From positions 1-28,642 of IMG/VR virus record IMGVR_UViG_3300035670_009554: a stretch of DNA of 28,642 bases; one strand, 5' to 3'. Source of the DNA: a virus. The notes under the pieces are model-generated. The model worked only from the letters and a program-made list of their open reading frames with translations. It had not been told where the DNA came from and ran no database searches. This document shows positions 95-28,446 of the stretch, piece by piece (position 1 is the stretch's first letter; each line of letters begins with the position of its first letter). A program made the position numbers and the translations under genes.

Positions 95-3000
95 GTGGCA
101 AGACCCCCAAAGAGCACAGAAGGCCGAATTACAGGTGCACAACGTCTCGATCGAATGAGAGAGTCGGCGTTGTCCCGACCAGCTGGGTCTTTAAGAGAAG
201 CGATTGGTCGAGTTCCTCAACAAATGGGAAGGAATCTTGCCGATCGCGTTTCTCAAGAGTTTGGTACTCTTGGGTCTGCCACAATTGCTGCAATTCGTAC
301 TCCTGGCGCTCGTTATCAAGCATTTAAAAAAGAAGTGGCAATTGGAATAAAATCATCAATTGCATCTGCTCTTGGTACTGGTCAAGTTGGTCGTTATCTT
401 GCTGATAAGATTCGTGGAGGAATTCGTTACGACAAGGATCCTCAAAAGAACTTTGAGAGGATGCGAGGGTTGTTTCAAGCAACCAATTCTGACTTACAAC
501 AGATCAAATCTTCTTTTAATAAAACTGAAAAGAATCTGCGTGATCTTGGTTTGATGGTCAAACAAGTTGCTCAAGATGTCAATAGAATTAAACAAGAACA
601 ATCAGTTCAACAACGTCTGATTGATCAATTAAGTCAAGCGAAAGCAGAGGACATTGGTCGAAAGAGTGCGTTATTACCAAGAGCTGGAAATGATAATGTA
701 CCAAAATCACCAGCAGGATTGGAGCAAGAAGTAACATCATTGTTGTCTGGGGCTGTTGGAGGAGCCTTAACACGTCTACCCTTTTCTAGGTTTGTCAAAT
801 TTGGTGTCGGGGCACTTGGCGTCTATGCAGCTTATCAAGCGTTACGATTCATCGATGAAAAAGCAAAAAATGCAACAAAAGAAACAGAAAGACTGGCTAA
901 AGAAGCTGAAAGGAACCTAGCTTCTGGAGATTCAAATTTACAGACTAAGGGTCTTGGCGATTTAACAAGAACTCAAAACTTACCAAGAAACAGTTCGACT
1001 GACAAAGCTATTGCTAATGCAATTAAAGCTGGGGCTTCGTTGGCCAAGACTCCAGAAGAGGCAACGATTACTGGATTAGTTGGAGATTATCAACAGTCGA
1101 CTACTAACGAAGAAAAACAAGTTATTTTATCGCAACTGTCTGCATTTGATTATAAGACTGTTCAAGATGTTGTAAGTCGGTTTCAAGTGCTTGGTTTGAT
1201 GAATGATTTGGATCGTTATATTGGTAATAGAAAACGCAATTTAAGAAATCAATCAAAGTCTCTTGATCAATATCCTGATGAAAGTGTCCGTCGAAAGTCT
1301 TGGGAAAACCGATCGATGGATGATTTAGAAAAGTTGATTGGCATCAAAAAAGATAGTCGTGGCACAGTTCGAATTAAAAGCGAATCTAAAGACACAATAT
1401 ACTTAGACTCATCCAAGATTGTTGTCGAAGGCGATCTGATTGTTAAAGGTAAAATAAAACCTGAAGGGTATCCTGACTGGGCTGATCGTGCATTTAATCC
1501 TGATGATAATACTCCAAAAACACCGGGCGCAATTCGAAGGAGACAATACCCACGTGGTAGAGTTGGGGCAATCACTGCTCCTGGCGTATTTGGCAAGTCT
1601 TCTTCTGTTTCATTAAGTGAGCGTTATGCCCGTTTTGGCACTAATATGGAAAAACAGCAGTTTCTTGCTTATGGTCAATTGCCACGTGGATTTGAGAATA
1701 TTCCCGGTCATATGGGTATATTAGGATCTCCTGGAGCAGTAATGGCAAGAGGTGTTATGCCTCTTGGTCAGTATGGTGGTGGAGGCGTTGTTGGTGGTTA
1801 TGGGGGAATGCCTTCTGTTTCTGGAGGTGGTTCGCCTGACGGTGGATCTTCTGGTGGAGGTGATTCCTCACCAAGCACAAGTTCCACTACAACTGACGCT
1901 TCAAACAAAGCAGTTCCATTTAGCTGGGGGGAGATAGGAAAAAGCACAGTGTCAGCGGCATCGACTGACTATGGCAAAATGACGCCCAATTCACGAGGAT
2001 ATGTTGACGCAAGAGCTTATTATCAATCTGCGTTGAAATCATTGGAAGGATCAAAATTAGTTGGGTTTGTGCCCAAAGATGGTGCTCGATTTGGAATTGA
2101 GAAAGGAACTAAGGAAGAATGGGCTCGATTCATGACTCAATTGACGAAACAAGAGTCTGGGTTTAATGTTAATACGGTTGGAGATAGGGGCAATTCTATT
2201 GGCCTGTCTCAAATGAAAGCTGGAGAATATGGAATAAGAGATCCACGAGACCCATTGCAAGCCCAACGTGGAATGATTAAACAGTTTGAAAAATACATTG
2301 TAGGGTCAGAAAAATCACCAGGATTTGGAAGTATTACTGGACAAGGACGTGGGCCAGGAACATATGCTGGTTGGGGAGGAGCGTCTGCTTATTTTGGTCC
2401 ATTGAGAGGCAATGCTAGAATTGAAAATGAATTCATGAAGCACAATAAGTGGATGCAACAAATGCGTCCACAATTTGATAAGGCTGGTGAATCTCTGCCT
2501 TCTTTGTCTTTACCTCCAAAAGAAATGCTGAATCCCAATTCACAACCACCCCAACCGCAGATTGAATCTATGCCATCAGGACCAACGTCTCGTCCAACTT
2601 TTTTTGAAAATGGAGTTCCAAGCAGTCGACAGCGTTCTGACGTTTTCAGACGTGGAGGTGTTGTTGTCAACTTGGACACAAATTGGAGTCCGAGAAAAAA
2701 CGAACAAACCCAACCAATGATAGTAATTCCAGACAATGCAACCAAACAACAACGAGATGCTGCTCAAAAATATGTTTCTGCGATGGAACAAGCCTACAAA
2801 CAGAAGTTTGGTCAATCGCTGCGCGGTAAAGTCGTGACAAGATCGCAAAACCAAAGAGGTCGAGCTAACACAATTCACACCGAACCTTTTAGTGTCAACG
2901 ACAAAAAAGCCGTTGAATACTTCACACAAACAAAGGAGGGAAGAGATGCTTTGGCAAAGGCTACTCAACATCTCGCAAGCATTCCTGGGGCAGTAATATC

Positions 3001-5778: not shown

Positions 5779-6663
5779 TTATTCTTCACTCAAACTTTTT
5801 AGAAGACTATCAAAATCTTCGTCATCATCGTCCATTGATGAAGCTTTAGTTTTCATCTCTGGAGCTGGTTGTTGAGGGATATTAGATACTTTTGGTGCAG
5901 TTTGAGTTGCTGATGTGCCAAGTACGCGATCAAGTTTAGTTTTTAGTTCATCATATGATTTGAAATTCTTTGGATCGATAAATTCTTGTAGAGAATATTG
6001 TTTTTCCCAAATCTTTTCAAGCATTGCATCATCATCTGATAGTGGTGATGGTTCACTGAAATCAGACTTATCGTAATTGCGATAACCTTCAACTTGTCGA
6101 ATACGAAGACGGAAGTTAGCGCCTTCCCAGAAATCAAATGGATTTACTGGTTCTTCATCATCAAAAGCTGGATTCATTAAATCATTAAGTTTATCAAAAA
6201 TCTTTTTGCCATACTTGAATAGAAATACTTTTCCTTCATTTTCTGGATTTGCGGGATCTTTAATAACTAGAATGTTTGAGATAAAATGAAGACGACGTTT
6301 TTGTTGACGCGCGGTTTCTTTGTCAGCTTCAACACCAGAGTTCCAGAGTTTTCCATTTAGTTCTGCTACCGGATCTGATTCACCGATCGTCGTTCTTGAA
6401 TTTTCGATATACCAAGATCCAGATGGACCTTTGAACCCATGCGAAAAGATTCGAACGAATGGTACATCTTCATCTTTTGGAGCTGGAAGGAAACGAAGTA
6501 CTGCTTGACCATTTCCAAACTTATCAACAGTTGGTTGCCAGAAACGAGTATCTGGGCCAGATTGTTGAGCACCACCACTTTGCATCTTGTTTAGTTCATC
6601 ATTAAGTTTATTGAATGATGATTTGCGCGCAGACTTCATTTGTGAGAAAGTTGTATTAGCCAT
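5779..6663 (-). CDS. 32: gp32-like single-stranded DNA-binding protein
   Basis: The 294-residue homologue of T4 gp32 (301 residues), which coats single-stranded DNA at replication forks and in recombination. The core carries the diagnostic NILVIKDPANPENEGKVF and KYGKKIFDKLNDLM blocks (about 130-165), and then FWEGANFRLRI. The N-terminus (MKSARKSSFNKL) resembles the basic LAST-type cooperativity segment. The C-terminus is very acidic (DDDDEDFDSLLKSL), as in T4, where it binds partner proteins. Start ATG 6663 (MANTTF) was chosen for its GGAGA 7-8 nt upstream; the frame stays open further upstream as AT-rich leader. The protein has no cysteine, so the zinc site of T4 gp32 (one His, three Cys) is absent; the aligned region reads GSWYIENSRTTIGESDP. 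Confidence 0.93.
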   Translation of the reverse strand: MANTTFSQMKSARKSSFNKLNDELNKMQSGGAQQSGPDTRFWQPTVDKFGNGQAVLRFLPAPKDEDVPFVRIFSHGFKGPSGSWYIENSRTTIGESDPVAELNGKLWNSGVEADKETARQQKRRLHFISNILVIKDPANPENEGKVFLFKYGKKIFDKLNDLMNPAFDDEEPVNPFDFWEGANFRLRIRQVEGYRNYDKSDFSEPSPLSDDDAMLEKIWEKQYSLQEFIDPKNFKSYDELKTKLDRVLGTSATQTAPKVSNIPQQPAPEMKTKASSMDDDDEDFDSLLKSLSEE

Positions 6664-9077: not shown

Positions 9078-9305
9078 TTAGCCAGAAACAAACTTATTTA
9101 ATTTGTCTGCTTCTCTCAACACATCGTCTGTTGTTACAGGAACGACCGTTGGAAATTCTGGAACTTTCCATGCTCCCGTCTTTTCAACATGAGCAAGTTG
9201 TGCTTGCCAAGTTTCCGATGCTGACTGCATCTCAATAGACTTCTCGTCTGCTAAAATACCACGAGCAAGTTTTAGTAGTTCTAATCTAATTTCATATGGA
9301 TTCAT
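9078..9305 (-). CDS. Conserved T4-like phage protein of unknown function
   Basis: A 75-residue protein opening MNPYEIRLELLKLARGIL. This N-terminal pattern, with a helix and then a Pro-rich middle (KVPEFPTVVPVTTDD) and the ending ADKLNKFV, resembles a small protein I know from many T4-like phages of marine hosts; its function is unknown to me. Start ATG 9305 was chosen because AAGGAG lies 6 nt upstream; the longer open frame to 9371 would run into the 3' hairpin of the tmRNA. It is bounded by two copies of an imperfect 30-bp repeat and is probably co-transcribed with the tmRNA from the promoter at 9673-9701. Confidence 0.8.
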   Translation of the reverse strand: MNPYEIRLELLKLARGILADEKSIEMQSASETWQAQLAHVEKTGAWKVPEFPTVVPVTTDDVLREADKLNKFVSG

Positions 9306-9342
9306 TTCATTCTCCTTGTGTGTTTGTGTGTATGGTAGTTTT

Positions 9343-9372
9343 TCTGTTTCGAGGGAAACTACCAAACCCAAT
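9343..9372. repeat. Imperfect 30-bp repeat, copy B
   Basis: The partner of 9048-9077. It overlaps the 3' hairpin of the tmRNA coding piece (stem arms 9334-9341 and 9356-9363). About 23 of 30 positions agree. Confidence 0.6.
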
Positions 9373-9376
9373 GAGA

Positions 9377-9418
9377 TTACGCTGCGAGGCGTGTCTCAAA
9401 TGGCGCATTATCGTTTGC
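9377..9418 (-). other. tmRNA tag reading frame (ANDNAPFETRLAA)
   Basis: The frame has 13 sense codons from the GCA resume codon to TAA. GTC-GCA-AAC-GA matches the junction in the E. coli tmRNA, whose tag is ANDENYALAA. With the Ala carried by the RNA the full tag would be AANDNAPFETRLAA. The LAA ending is the ClpXP/ClpAP degron form, and as I recall RLAA endings occur in rhizobial tags. There is no start codon or ribosome binding site, as expected for tmRNA. Confidence 0.9.
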
Positions 9419-9500
9419 GACATTTATAGGTTTTGGACTAATTTGCGGTCGTTCCTTACCGGTATCTCCACTCTCTCCAATACGTCTGTCGATCCTATTT

Positions 9501-9616
9501 ACCGCCCATCAACAACACACTACCCCTCCCGTACCGTTTCAACCCAGAGTGGATAGGGCGTTGGGTCATGTAATGGCTCACACGGAATTTCTTCTAGTGT
9601 GTTGATGGTGGACGGT
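9501..9616 (-). other. tmRNA precursor: acceptor stem halves and bridging hairpin
   Basis: The acceptor 3' strand (9616-9610) and 5' strand (9507-9501) are joined in the precursor by an intervening segment (9605-9508). The two ends of this segment pair again: CAACACACTA, just after CCA, with TAGTGTGTTG. The acceptor stem would therefore form in the precursor as one long helix, and removal of the spacer would leave two pieces. In permuted tmRNAs the host processing enzymes do this; that step is inferred here. Confidence 0.8.
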
Positions 9617-9672
9617 TTGGGTACTGCCCCCAAGTCCAGTCCGTTCTTTGATCGCTTCAACGATACAATCTA

Positions 9673-9701
9673 TATATACATTCAGAAGACTAGATTGTCA
9701 A
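9673..9701 (-). promoter_or_regulatory. Sigma70-type promoter of the tmRNA
   Basis: TTGACA (9701-9696), a 17-nt spacer and TATATA (9678-9673). The -35 hexamer lies in the last codons of speD (TTG ACA ATC TAG). Transcription should start near 9666, about 34 nt before the T-arm-like hairpin. Confidence 0.88.
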
Positions 9702-10079
9702 CTTGTTTTTATCCAGTATCACCAAATCTCCATCACGGTCGATCAACGTATAATCAATCATCGTCGGATCAAACTGTTTCATCTTACTGAACACGATTTC
9801 AACGTCCAATTCAGAACAAGTATATACATCCAGTTGGATCGTTGCTGGACTATCTTCATCCCAGGTATGGATTGCAATATGGCTTGTTTCAATAACACAA
9901 ACACCAGTATATCCTCGATTACCAATAACTGGACAATATACTGTATGAGGCCCCGAAAGAATCTTCATTCCAATCGATTCGATTAGATCTTGAAACCAGA
10001 AATTCATTTTATCCAGATCATCAGCAGATGGTGGATTATTGATTTCTGCTCGAACAATTAGGTGTTTATGCTTCAACAT
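9690..10079 (-). CDS. speD: S-adenosylmethionine decarboxylase-like protein
   Basis: A 129-residue SpeD-family protein. Bacterial SpeD makes decarboxylated S-adenosylmethionine for spermidine synthesis, using a pyruvoyl group formed by self-cleavage before a serine. The core motif SHIAIHTWDE (66-75) gives Ser66, His67 and His71; Cys88 in VYTCSE matches the catalytic Cys. The residue before the cleaved Ser is Thr (IETSH), where the usual bacterial motif has Glu-Ser, so the cleavage site is shifted or altered. Some SpeD homologues, including viral ones, decarboxylate ornithine or arginine instead, so the substrate is uncertain. ATG 10079 has AAAGGA about 10 nt upstream. The tmRNA promoter sits in the gene's last codons, and a 21-codon ORF precedes it. 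Confidence 0.85.
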   Translation of the reverse strand: MLKHKHLIVRAEINNPPSADDLDKMNFWFQDLIESIGMKILSGPHTVYCPVIGNRGYTGVCVIETSHIAIHTWDEDSPATIQLDVYTCSELDVEIVFSKMKQFDPTMIDYTLIDRDGDLVILDKNKLTI

Positions 10080-20022: not shown

Positions 20023-20098
20023 TGGTACGGGTAATCGGATTCGAACCGATACTGAATTGATTTTAAGTCAATTGCCTCTACCATTGGGCTATACCCGC
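20023..20098 (-). tRNA. tRNA-Leu(UAA)-like with short variable loop
   Basis: A full cloverleaf of 76 nt including encoded CCA. Acceptor GCGGGTA pairs with TACCCGT (first pair G-U). D-arm GCC...GGC with loop containing GGTAGA; anticodon arm ATTGA/TCAAT with loop CTTAAAA, giving anticodon TAA (Leu, UUA); 5-nt variable loop TCAGT; T-arm ATCGG/CCGAT with loop TTCGAAT; discriminator A. Bacterial leucine tRNAs normally carry a long variable arm, which is missing. The anticodon stem is close to that of tRNA-Lys. The amino acid actually attached is therefore uncertain. A promoter ends about 10 bp upstream. Confidence 0.92.
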
Positions 20099-24949: not shown

Positions 24950-25023
24950 TGGAGCAGGGTACGGGAATCAAACCCGTATCATTGGCTTGGAAGGCCAAGG
25001 CACTATCAATATACCAACCCTGC
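24950..25023 (-). tRNA. tRNA-Gly(UCC)
   Basis: A 74-nt cloverleaf with encoded CCA. Acceptor GCAGGGT/ACCCTGC, anticodon arm TTGGC/GCCAA with loop CTTCCAA (anticodon TCC, codon GGA), T-arm ACGGG/CCCGT with loop TTTGATT, discriminator T as in bacterial tRNA-Gly(UCC). The body closely resembles E. coli glyT. It lies 7 nt after the SpoU methyltransferase gene and would be part of the same transcript. Confidence 0.95.
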
Positions 25024-25030
25024 GTGTTTG

Positions 25031-25624
25031 TTATTTAGGCAATACTTTCAAGTCCATTGCCACTTTATTCATTACAATTGATGCTGCCGAAGCAACATTG
25101 AGAGAACGGAGAACTCCTACTTGTGGAATAGAAAAGATTTCGCCACCATACAAATAATTATGGGACATCATCGAACGAGGAACGCCAACTGCTTCTTCAC
25201 CAAAGATAAGACATTGTTTCGGTGAATAGTAGAAGTTGGCACAATTTATGTCATAGCCCCCCTGTTCGACAAACGAAGGGGTATACCCGTCACAAAAGAT
25301 TTCGTCAAGTATCTTTGTCTGCTGTGTCTCGTCATTAACATCTTTCTGAATGAACTTCAAATCGATATAGTTTTGAGCACCGACACAACTACGACGATCA
25401 AACCTTTTTCTACCAATAATATACACTCGTTCGGCACCAAATATTACTGCTGTGCGAATGATATTTCCGATGTTCAATCCACCTTTTAGATTGAGAAGTG
25501 CAATTGAATATGGCAGACAATTTTTCTTTTGAAACTGTTGGACTTCTGAAAGTGACAGAGACTTAAATTCGTCTGCCACATTAAAGTCCATACAGGTATT
25601 CAGTTGGTTTTCAGTAATGTTCAT
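25031..25624 (-). CDS. SpoU/TrmH-family RNA 2'-O-methyltransferase
   Basis: A 197-residue SpoU-class (SPOUT) methyltransferase that would methylate a ribose in tRNA or rRNA. Motif 1 is NIGNIIRTAVIFGAERVYIIG, motif 2 CLIFGEEAVGVPRSM and motif 3 FSIPQVGVLRSLNVASAASIVM, with the catalytic Arg in NIIRTA. The enzyme lacks the usual RNA-binding extension; it has a 40-residue N-terminal segment. Its stop lies 7 nt from the 5' end of tRNA-Gly. The target could be a phage or host tRNA. It overlaps the next upstream gene by one base (TAATG-type). Confidence 0.9.
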   Translation of the reverse strand: MNITENQLNTCMDFNVADEFKSLSLSEVQQFQKKNCLPYSIALLNLKGGLNIGNIIRTAVIFGAERVYIIGRKRFDRRSCVGAQNYIDLKFIQKDVNDETQQTKILDEIFCDGYTPSFVEQGGYDINCANFYYSPKQCLIFGEEAVGVPRSMMSHNYLYGGEIFSIPQVGVLRSLNVASAASIVMNKVAMDLKVLPK

Positions 25625-27149: not shown

Positions 27150-28178
27150 TCACAGTCCTTCAATTTTGATTACATCAGTTGTATTTTTTAATTTAGATCC
27201 CCCAAGAACCGCATTACCACAAGTTACAAGACCGTCTTCTTCATCAATTGAAGGCACGAATACCAATACATCAAAACCTACTTTCTTTAATGCTTCTTCG
27301 ACCTCTTGATATGGAGCATAACTATCATATCCTCCAACAGTCTTGATGTCATTTTCTCTACAAGCATTGTTGTTGTGGATAGGAGTAATTTTACACATAA
27401 ACATTTCTGGATCAAACAACGATACTAGATACTCTGCATCAATTTTATAATCTGTAGAATATGCAAAATTCAAACAATATTTACGAGAGAGAGGTGGTGG
27501 CAAATACTTACAAATATGTGAAAAATCTTTCAAATGAAGTTGTTGATCTCCAAACATAACCGATCTTTGAGCTTCATCTGTAGAATTGATGGAAAACTGC
27601 AATCCTGCTTGACCGTAATAGTACTCGTTTTTGATCACGCACCACTGCCTGATTCTTTCTTCTAGTTTCTTAAACTTCTTAGGCAATGAAGTTGTTAGTA
27701 CAGGATGGATAACTTCGACTCTTAGATTATGGGTATCCTTCAAATATCTCTTTCCATCATCACGAGATATTAATCTAGAAAATACAAAAACATCATCATT
27801 GAAGATTGGATCGCCCATTCGAGCAAAATGAATGTTCATTCTCTCCGTATATCTAACTGAGGGAAACAGAGAAATTGCATTGTCCAATTGCTTGAACAAA
27901 TCTTTGTGTGTGGCATTGCCTCGAAATTTGACGTTCGGAACATCACAAAAATTGCATTTCATCGGACAACCATACTGAGTGGATAAAGTGATTACCCATT
28001 TCTCTGAAAGAGGCATACAGTAAGTATTTGGAACTCCTTCAATTGGTTTTGTATATCCCAAGAAATCTGCCTTGACATTATACTTTTTTCCATAATCTCC
28101 AATAGAAAGAGTTTCTAGTTTTCCTTTACTGTAATCATCAGTAAACAGATAGCCAGTAGGAATTGGAAATTTATTCAT
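27150..28178 (-). CDS. RlmN-like radical SAM enzyme
   Basis: A 342-residue radical SAM protein. CPMKCNFC (Cys71, Cys75, Cys78) binds the 4Fe-4S cluster that cleaves SAM. STQYGC before it, ARMGDPIFNDD (RlmN: MGEPL-like), the KITPIHNN block and GLVTCGNAVLGG at the C-terminus resemble the RlmN/Cfr family, which methylates C2 or C8 of adenosine in 23S rRNA and tRNA. The terminal Cys would correspond to the Cys methylated in RlmN, but the partner Cys before the cluster appears replaced by Thr (VITLSTQYGC). The target is uncertain. ATG 28178 has GGGAG upstream; the start overlaps the previous stop by 8 nt. Confidence 0.82.
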   Translation of the reverse strand: MNKFPIPTGYLFTDDYSKGKLETLSIGDYGKKYNVKADFLGYTKPIEGVPNTYCMPLSEKWVITLSTQYGCPMKCNFCDVPNVKFRGNATHKDLFKQLDNAISLFPSVRYTERMNIHFARMGDPIFNDDVFVFSRLISRDDGKRYLKDTHNLRVEVIHPVLTTSLPKKFKKLEERIRQWCVIKNEYYYGQAGLQFSINSTDEAQRSVMFGDQQLHLKDFSHICKYLPPPLSRKYCLNFAYSTDYKIDAEYLVSLFDPEMFMCKITPIHNNNACRENDIKTVGGYDSYAPYQEVEEALKKVGFDVLVFVPSIDEEDGLVTCGNAVLGGSKLKNTTDVIKIEGL

Positions 28179-28446
28179 CTTTCTTCTCCCAATGAGCACA
28201 GAAAAATTCTGCTCTTGTATATAGAGATGCTGCATAACTTGAGCCATCTTGAGTAAACATCAACTGGTCTTTATATTCAGGAATGATTTCTAATTGAGTT
28301 TCGCCATCAATTTCAACCCAATCTTCGGCATCAAATAACTGAACTGCTTTGTCACACCGACGAACTGCTCGGTTACTATTATATCGAGGATTTAAAGTGT
28401 TCCAATGTTTGCAAGTCTTACATTTCTTACATTTCTTATATTTCAT
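28171..28446 (-). CDS. Cys-rich, probably zinc-binding protein
   Basis: A 91-residue protein. The N-terminus has a dense Cys/Lys cluster (MKYKKCKKCKTCKHW), then RRCDKAVQLF, and near the end EFFCAHWEKKDE. This CxxCxxC...C...C spacing suggests a metal site; similar short phage proteins of the form CKTCKHW...C...FGCVHWE are widespread. The middle is acidic (AEDWVEIDGETQLEIIPEYKD). Its start overlaps the preceding gene by 11 nt. Function unknown. Confidence 0.7.
   Translation of the reverse strand: MKYKKCKKCKTCKHWNTLNPRYNSNRAVRRCDKAVQLFDAEDWVEIDGETQLEIIPEYKDQLMFTQDGSSYAASLYTRAEFFCAHWEKKDE

Follow-up and report, generated by a model that had tools for sequence, protein, structure and literature searches.

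A permuted tmRNA gene of a T4-like phage and its place among phage tmRNAs with exchanged intervening segments

A 2022 paper described the permuted tmRNA of Melnitz, a T4-like phage infecting OM43 bacteria, and in a survey of public phage genomes counted 53 two-piece tmRNAs (PMC9004378); 79 bacteriophage sequences are listed in the tmRNA database (PMC11915505). Here we analyzed a further locus, found in a 28,642-base IMG/VR virus record whose whole length we refer to as the window. A sequence-only reading of this DNA had proposed that a T4-like phage here encodes its own permuted tmRNA and knew of no earlier description of such a gene. The first proposal was borne out by two Rfam models scoring over their cut-offs and by T4-type genes on the same contig, whereas the claim to novelty fell to the earlier Melnitz report. 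The window gene is a further member of an already known kind, with a private acceptor stem and a private intervening segment (ITS). We consider it very likely that the phage has here a working gene for a permuted tmRNA of alphaproteobacterial type, serving host-assisted ribosome rescue, and that phage ITSs form an exchangeable, often cargo-carrying slot. Gene anatomy, covariation, the conserved tag frame, synteny and the lack of any SmpB in the phage records examined were observed directly, while transcription, processing, charging, tagging and cargo function are inferred.

The permuted tmRNA gene next to speD

The window is the entire virus record and probably a fragment of a larger genome. 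By its gene content this genome is that of a T4-like phage, the criterion for membership being T4-type core genes on the same contig: a gp32-type SSB (E 1e-116), a T4-type exonuclease/RNase H, PhoH and a baseplate hub lysozyme. Using cmscan with Rfam 15, we found RF04321 (tmRNA_permuted) at 9377-9666 on the minus strand with 90.6 bits against a gathering cut-off of 47 (E 1.7e-16) and RF01849 (alpha_tmRNA) at 9332-9705 on the same strand with 85.3 bits against a cut-off of 50 (E 5e-22). Both matches span the whole length of their models, and the tmRNA match at this locus is far beyond chance. The sequence-only reading had named two programs for checking 9300-9720; Infernal with the alpha-tmRNA model supported it at the score above, and ARAGORN, with the settings as run, missed the permuted tmRNA, two tRNAs being its only calls in the window. 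Genes for tRNA-Leu(taa) and tRNA-Gly(tcc) lie at 20023-20098 and 24950-25023 (minus strand), the latter adjoined by a gene for a SpoU/TrmH-type RNA 2'-O-methyltransferase-like protein (25031-25624, minus strand) that scores under curated cut-offs. A radical-SAM protein with weak RlmN/Cfr-like similarity (TIGR00048, 24.6 bits versus a cut-off of 290; E 1.1e-5) is encoded at 27150-28247 on the minus strand and appears to be a divergent, RNA-methyltransferase-like phage protein.

All parts that had been listed for the gene were found in the order claimed, on the minus strand from 9701 to 9334. From 5' to 3', the features of the locus are as follows.

9690-10079, minus strand: speD, an S-adenosylmethionine decarboxylase-like gene upstream of the tmRNA (PF02675, E 2.3e-15; phrog_3125; syntenic in L124 and L382)
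9673-9701, minus strand: probable promoter TTGACA-17-TATATA, read by eye, overlapping the speD-like stop codon
9617-9633, minus strand: T-arm of the tRNA-like domain, TTGGG GGCAGTA CCCAA, with a T-loop of alphaproteobacterial type (Rfam alignments)
9606-9616, minus strand: acceptor 3' strand ACCGTCC (9616-9610), then discriminator A73 and encoded CCA (9609-9606), the end of the acceptor (tRNA-like) piece
9508-9605, minus strand: ITS of 98 nt, expected to be discarded in processing
9501-9507, minus strand: acceptor 5' strand GGGCGGT (Rfam alignment)
9482-9500, minus strand: conserved D-loop region AAATAGGATCGACAGACGT of the mRNA-like piece (sequence reading and Rfam alignment)
9377-9418, minus strand: tag reading frame with resume codon GCA and stop TAA, product ANDNAPFETRLAA
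9334-9363, minus strand: 3' hairpin GGTAGTTT...AAACTACC of the mRNA-like piece (RF01849 alignment)
9317-9298: Shine-Dalgarno sequence and ATG of the next gene, just downstream of the tmRNA

The "consensus promoter" of the sequence-only reading was upheld only in part, since TTGACA-17-TATATA can be seen by eye but a sigma-70 pattern scan made no call there. The sequence recurs with the same spacing in the related L124, and L382 has a variant with TTGACC. In the window, all seven acceptor pairs can form between 9610-9616 and 9501-9507, including G3-U70; a G-U at the third acceptor pair is the identity pair for alanine. The strand GGGCGGT (9507-9501) is followed by the D-loop AAATAGGATCGAC, and the tag is read from the codons GCA AAC GAT AAT GCG CCA TTT GAG ACA CGC CTC GCA GCG TAA, so that the peptide has the hydrophobic AA end of tmRNA tags. 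The two ends of the ITS pair over 10 bp, and this helix stacks on the acceptor stem. Based on the UGAU|G1 junction, which is common to most phage ITSs (UGAU adjoins G1 in 81/118), RNase P cleavage is predicted between 9508 and 9507. The RF01849 alignment is full-length, yet several consensus pairs outside the acceptor stem and T-arm are non-standard, and the D-stem and pseudoknots of the window were outside our covariation analysis.

Conservation in related phages

The nearest relatives of the window are L124, whose gp32 is 76% identical, and L360. The order speD, tmRNA, downstream gene is common to the window and L124, and the speD-tmRNA locus is also present in L382. The tag peptide is identical in the window, L124 and L360, although the 42-nt frame differs at 5 (L124) and 3 (L360) nucleotides, all synonymous. 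Outside the acceptor start, the window and L124 share 95% identity in the mRNA piece as far as the tag, and 72-78% in the flanking genes, whereas identity falls to 42% in the acceptor start and 39% in the ITS. Acceptor pairing is nevertheless preserved by three double changes (GGGCGGT/ACCGTCC in the window versus GGGGGTG/CACCTCC in L124), and the 3' hairpin of L124 has the compensatory form GACAGTTT...AAACTGTC. The acceptor pairing and the tag frame, whose loss in related phages would have counted against the sequence-only reading, are thus both maintained, the former through compensatory change. The tmRNA of L223/L124 has what looks like a 6-nt T-loop (TTCAAT), and its D-loop segment is shorter than in the window; this may be real or an assembly error.

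Beyond these relatives, 27 of the 50 viral contigs matched by gp32 had an RF04321 score over the cut-off; in T4-like viral contigs, permuted tmRNAs are common and no mere oddity. No RF04321 match was obtained in the marine virus AG-345-L05 or in the Sinorhizobium T4-like phages phiM12 and phiN3, and some T4-like contigs (L204, L205 and L209) carry beta-type, not alpha-type, tmRNAs. At least 120 loci in IMG/VR carry a 15-base signature of the gene, and in 109 of the 118 listed loci with enough upstream DNA we found a full 7-bp acceptor stem, a 5-bp T-stem and ACCA upstream (null rate 0). These frequencies are rough, since the viral scans used exact signatures and covered only the matches listed. 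One locus, L227, has a manA RNA motif (RF01745, 61.8 bits; 1208-1440, minus strand) directly adjoining its permuted tmRNA.

Our parsed set comprised 118 distinct phage and 97 bacterial permuted tmRNAs. Acceptor and T-stem cells were paired in 1091 of 1092 cases, with many compensatory types, and in 52-56% when the strands were slid. The parser required near-complete pairing, which makes this statistic partly circular; the variety of pair types is not circular. The T-arm stem covaries across 91 non-redundant phage tmRNAs, and G3-U70 was present in all 118 phage sequences parsed.

Intervening segments of phage tmRNAs

The ITS is the most unusual part of the gene, and the sequence-only reading had not remarked on it. 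Its median length is 86 nt in phages (quartiles 62-122) versus 30 nt (23-35) in bacteria. The window ITS contains no Shine-Dalgarno-led ORF beyond 3 codons and so does not qualify as a coding slot; its only long ATG frame (24 aa, MTQRPIHSGLKRYGRGSVLLMGGK) lacks a Shine-Dalgarno sequence and runs into the D-loop stop, and was rejected as coding. Nor does it qualify as a recurrent cassette, with no relative found in phages, in IMG/VR (searched with one 18-mer) or among 99 other ITSs. Its folding is only modestly better than that of shuffles (z -1.73), and any function for it is inferred. On this evidence, and because bacterial ITSs are short and seem to need no more, it is quite possible that the window ITS is an unconstrained spacer, a hairpin that unites the two halves for RNase P and yields no product of its own. 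What keeps us from preferring this is the behavior of phage ITSs at large: they are about three times the bacterial length, a contiguous helix of at least 8 bp joins their ends in 92 of 96 cases (null 8.6%), they are replaced wholesale rather than drifting, and in other phages their content is under selection or the same RNA recurs in unlike tmRNAs.

Replacement is seen most clearly between L062 and L128, where the flanks are 97% and 99% identical and the tmRNA bodies 100%, but the ITSs only 45%, a value expected of a gapped alignment of unrelated sequences that share only their closing-helix ends. L057 and L072 follow the same pattern with flanks of 87-89% identity. Comparison of the ITS cores gave 15 families, several of them common to tmRNA bodies that are just 56-85% identical. 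The phage ITS is best read as an exchangeable slot whose content is replaced; the exchange itself is observed, and recombination between the conserved tmRNA halves is plausibly its route.

Some of the exchanged content is RNA. The K1 family (GTCGGAACAAATRTGGTSTAAT), sought in all of IMG/VR, lay before the G1 strand of a permuted tmRNA at 19 of 19 loci with several unlike bodies, the CCA side being visible too except in L378, which is cut at its left end. The K1 pairs form without exception (100%) across eight distinct sequences, and at five of these pairs both partners have changed (0/500 shuffles); the proposed pseudoknot stem is invariant, so there is no covariation evidence for it. A second family, K2, lies inside the ITS at five loci. 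In L382, which has the speD locus as in the window, K2 is a free-standing element between the promoter and a tmRNA whose own ITS is different; that ITS bears a suggestive resemblance, below threshold, to the ITS of L129. In L113 the 294-nt ITS carries two items in tandem, first an RNA cassette with relatives in L116/L162 and then an ORF for a transmembrane protein with relatives in L074/L105. We also considered ITSs as degenerate tRNAs and dropped this as a general explanation: T-arm-like motifs occur in some (L062, L167 and L205), but no tRNA was found inside an ITS in a 20-locus Rfam scan. That scan hides same-clan overlaps, so the tRNA negative is not clean.

Other ITSs are coding. Among the 90 phage ITSs that reach 60 nt or more, 22 are filled to at least 60% by a Shine-Dalgarno-led ORF, versus 5.1 expected from dinucleotide shuffles; none of seven bacterial ITSs of that length is so filled. 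Many of these ORFs use as stop codon either the UGA within the UGAU junction or the UAG within the D-loop sequence AAAUAG. For ORF pairs from four families dN/dS was 0.08-0.24 with synonymous sites unsaturated, which establishes coding selection; a cargo function is an inference. For instance, the 499-nt ITS of L034 holds two ORFs of 34 and 120 aa, the longer product being membrane-protein-like, and the annotated SsrA gene of Melnitz contains within its ITS an unannotated Shine-Dalgarno-led ORF (MFKWLSKTRLVVITRDYFRERNRKADAKIPKYLSG...). By eye, a PKYLxG motif is common to the first L034 ORF and the ITS ORFs of Melnitz and L092. Several families are also found away from tmRNAs. Members of the MGGMDNKTS family are ordinary genes in L356-L359, the gene that directly precedes the Melnitz tmRNA belongs to the MEIIWH family, and a stand-alone homologue of the 120-aa L034 protein is encoded elsewhere in Melnitz. 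Comparison of ten ITS proteins with Pfam and PHROGs yielded no functional assignment. By analogy, the ITS cargo may resemble phage accessory or counter-defence loci, as it is likewise small, quick to turn over and outside known families.

We lean, with moderate confidence, toward the ITS as a cargo slot for small protein genes, with the Shine-Dalgarno in or beside the closing helix, and for compact, partly pseudoknotted RNAs, swapped between near-identical phages, transcribed from the tmRNA promoter and freed by tRNA-processing enzymes. The window would be a private, non-coding member, perhaps one that acts on the host or counters its defences. It appears that phages have turned the spacer discarded from a near-universal bacterial quality-control RNA into a slot for expressing rapidly changing genes and RNAs of their own. 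If true, this is a new kind of nested gene, and it points to unannotated small proteins and RNAs, one of them in the published Melnitz genome.

Proposed function and comparison with known systems

In the mechanism we propose, one transcript would start just after speD, and host tRNA-processing enzymes (RNase P at G9507 and 3' trimming to CCA) would remove the 98-nt ITS, leaving two RNAs that stay joined through the acceptor stem. Host alanyl-tRNA synthetase could charge this molecule via G3-U70, and with host SmpB it would rescue stalled ribosomes during infection, adding (A)ANDNAPFETRLAA for proteolysis. In many phages, the ITS would supply a small gene or structured RNA transcribed along with the tmRNA. 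A search of phages for SmpB, also suggested by the sequence-only reading, came back empty in all 48 phage records while the controls rang; host SmpB is presumably used because of this absence. For the same reason the RNA could equally titrate host SmpB, and a phage tmRNA acting mainly as a competitor, one that titrates SmpB or AlaRS or replaces the host tag and so dampens host trans-translation, must be weighed. The truncated phage tmRNA of DS6A resembles a tmRNA-inhibiting molecule, perhaps acting via SmpB titration (PMC4131195). We nevertheless regard this as unlikely, since the tag frame, resume codon and LAA ending are under purifying selection and a pure decoy would not need them.

Two artifactual or degenerate origins fare worse. 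IMG/VR contigs are metagenome assemblies in which the tmRNA body is a repeat shared between phages, so the ITS swaps might be assembly chimeras; we find this highly improbable because one chimera would swap a whole flank rather than ~100 nt between 97-99% identical flanks, identical ITS/body combinations recur in several contigs, and isolates have long ITSs too (Melnitz 142 nt, Cp1R7A-A1 93 nt and Phosso 410 nt). Least credible is a functionless, decaying copy of host ssrA acquired through faulty excision or recombination. Integration often targets host ssrA genes, and fragments of them travel in prophages (PMC9004378), but every part is intact, relatives have the locus beside speD too, tag changes are synonymous only, acceptor changes are compensatory, and the nearest mRNA pieces in the parsed set are from phages (0.75), not bacteria (0.69).

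Among isolates, the public genome of Mesorhizobium phage Cp1R7A-A1 (MT188704) has an unannotated permuted tmRNA at 5825-6234 with tag ANDNHFEARALAA and its 93-nt ITS. Sinorhizobium phage Phosso (PV764938) has another at 349596-350198, also unannotated, with an apparently non-coding ITS; this 469-kb jumbo phage of S. meliloti is a convenient laboratory system. Among the open-access PMC papers searched, we met none that described genes within a tmRNA ITS.

Among the known systems closest to the window gene is that of Melnitz (MZ577097; PMC9004378), likewise a T4-like phage with a permuted alpha-type tmRNA of the RF04321 family (113 bits in Melnitz), lying as in the window near PhoH, exonuclease and gp32-region genes. 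The two differ in tag (ANDNYVPVDYALAA in Melnitz versus ANDNAPFETRLAA) and in ITS, that of Melnitz having 142 nt with its unannotated Shine-Dalgarno-led ORF (MFKWLSKTRLVV...) and that of the window 98 nt without coding content. A glutamine riboswitch was reported at the 3' part of the Melnitz tmRNA (PMC9004378), whereas the Rfam scan of the window found none. One-piece phage tmRNAs (mycobacteriophages Bxz1, Wildcat and others, and Bacillus phage G; PMC4131195) are likewise phage-borne but, unlike the window gene, are standard unpermuted genes without an excised internal segment. With the alphaproteobacterial two-piece tmRNA (RF01849; Caulobacter type), the window shares part order, T-loop type GGCRGTA, D-loop AAATAGGATCGAC, an AND...LAA tag and the 3' hairpin. 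The sampled bacteria with this type have an ITS of ~30 nt, with 0/7 of those of at least 60 nt coding, whereas phage ITSs are long, can be exchanged and frequently have coding content.
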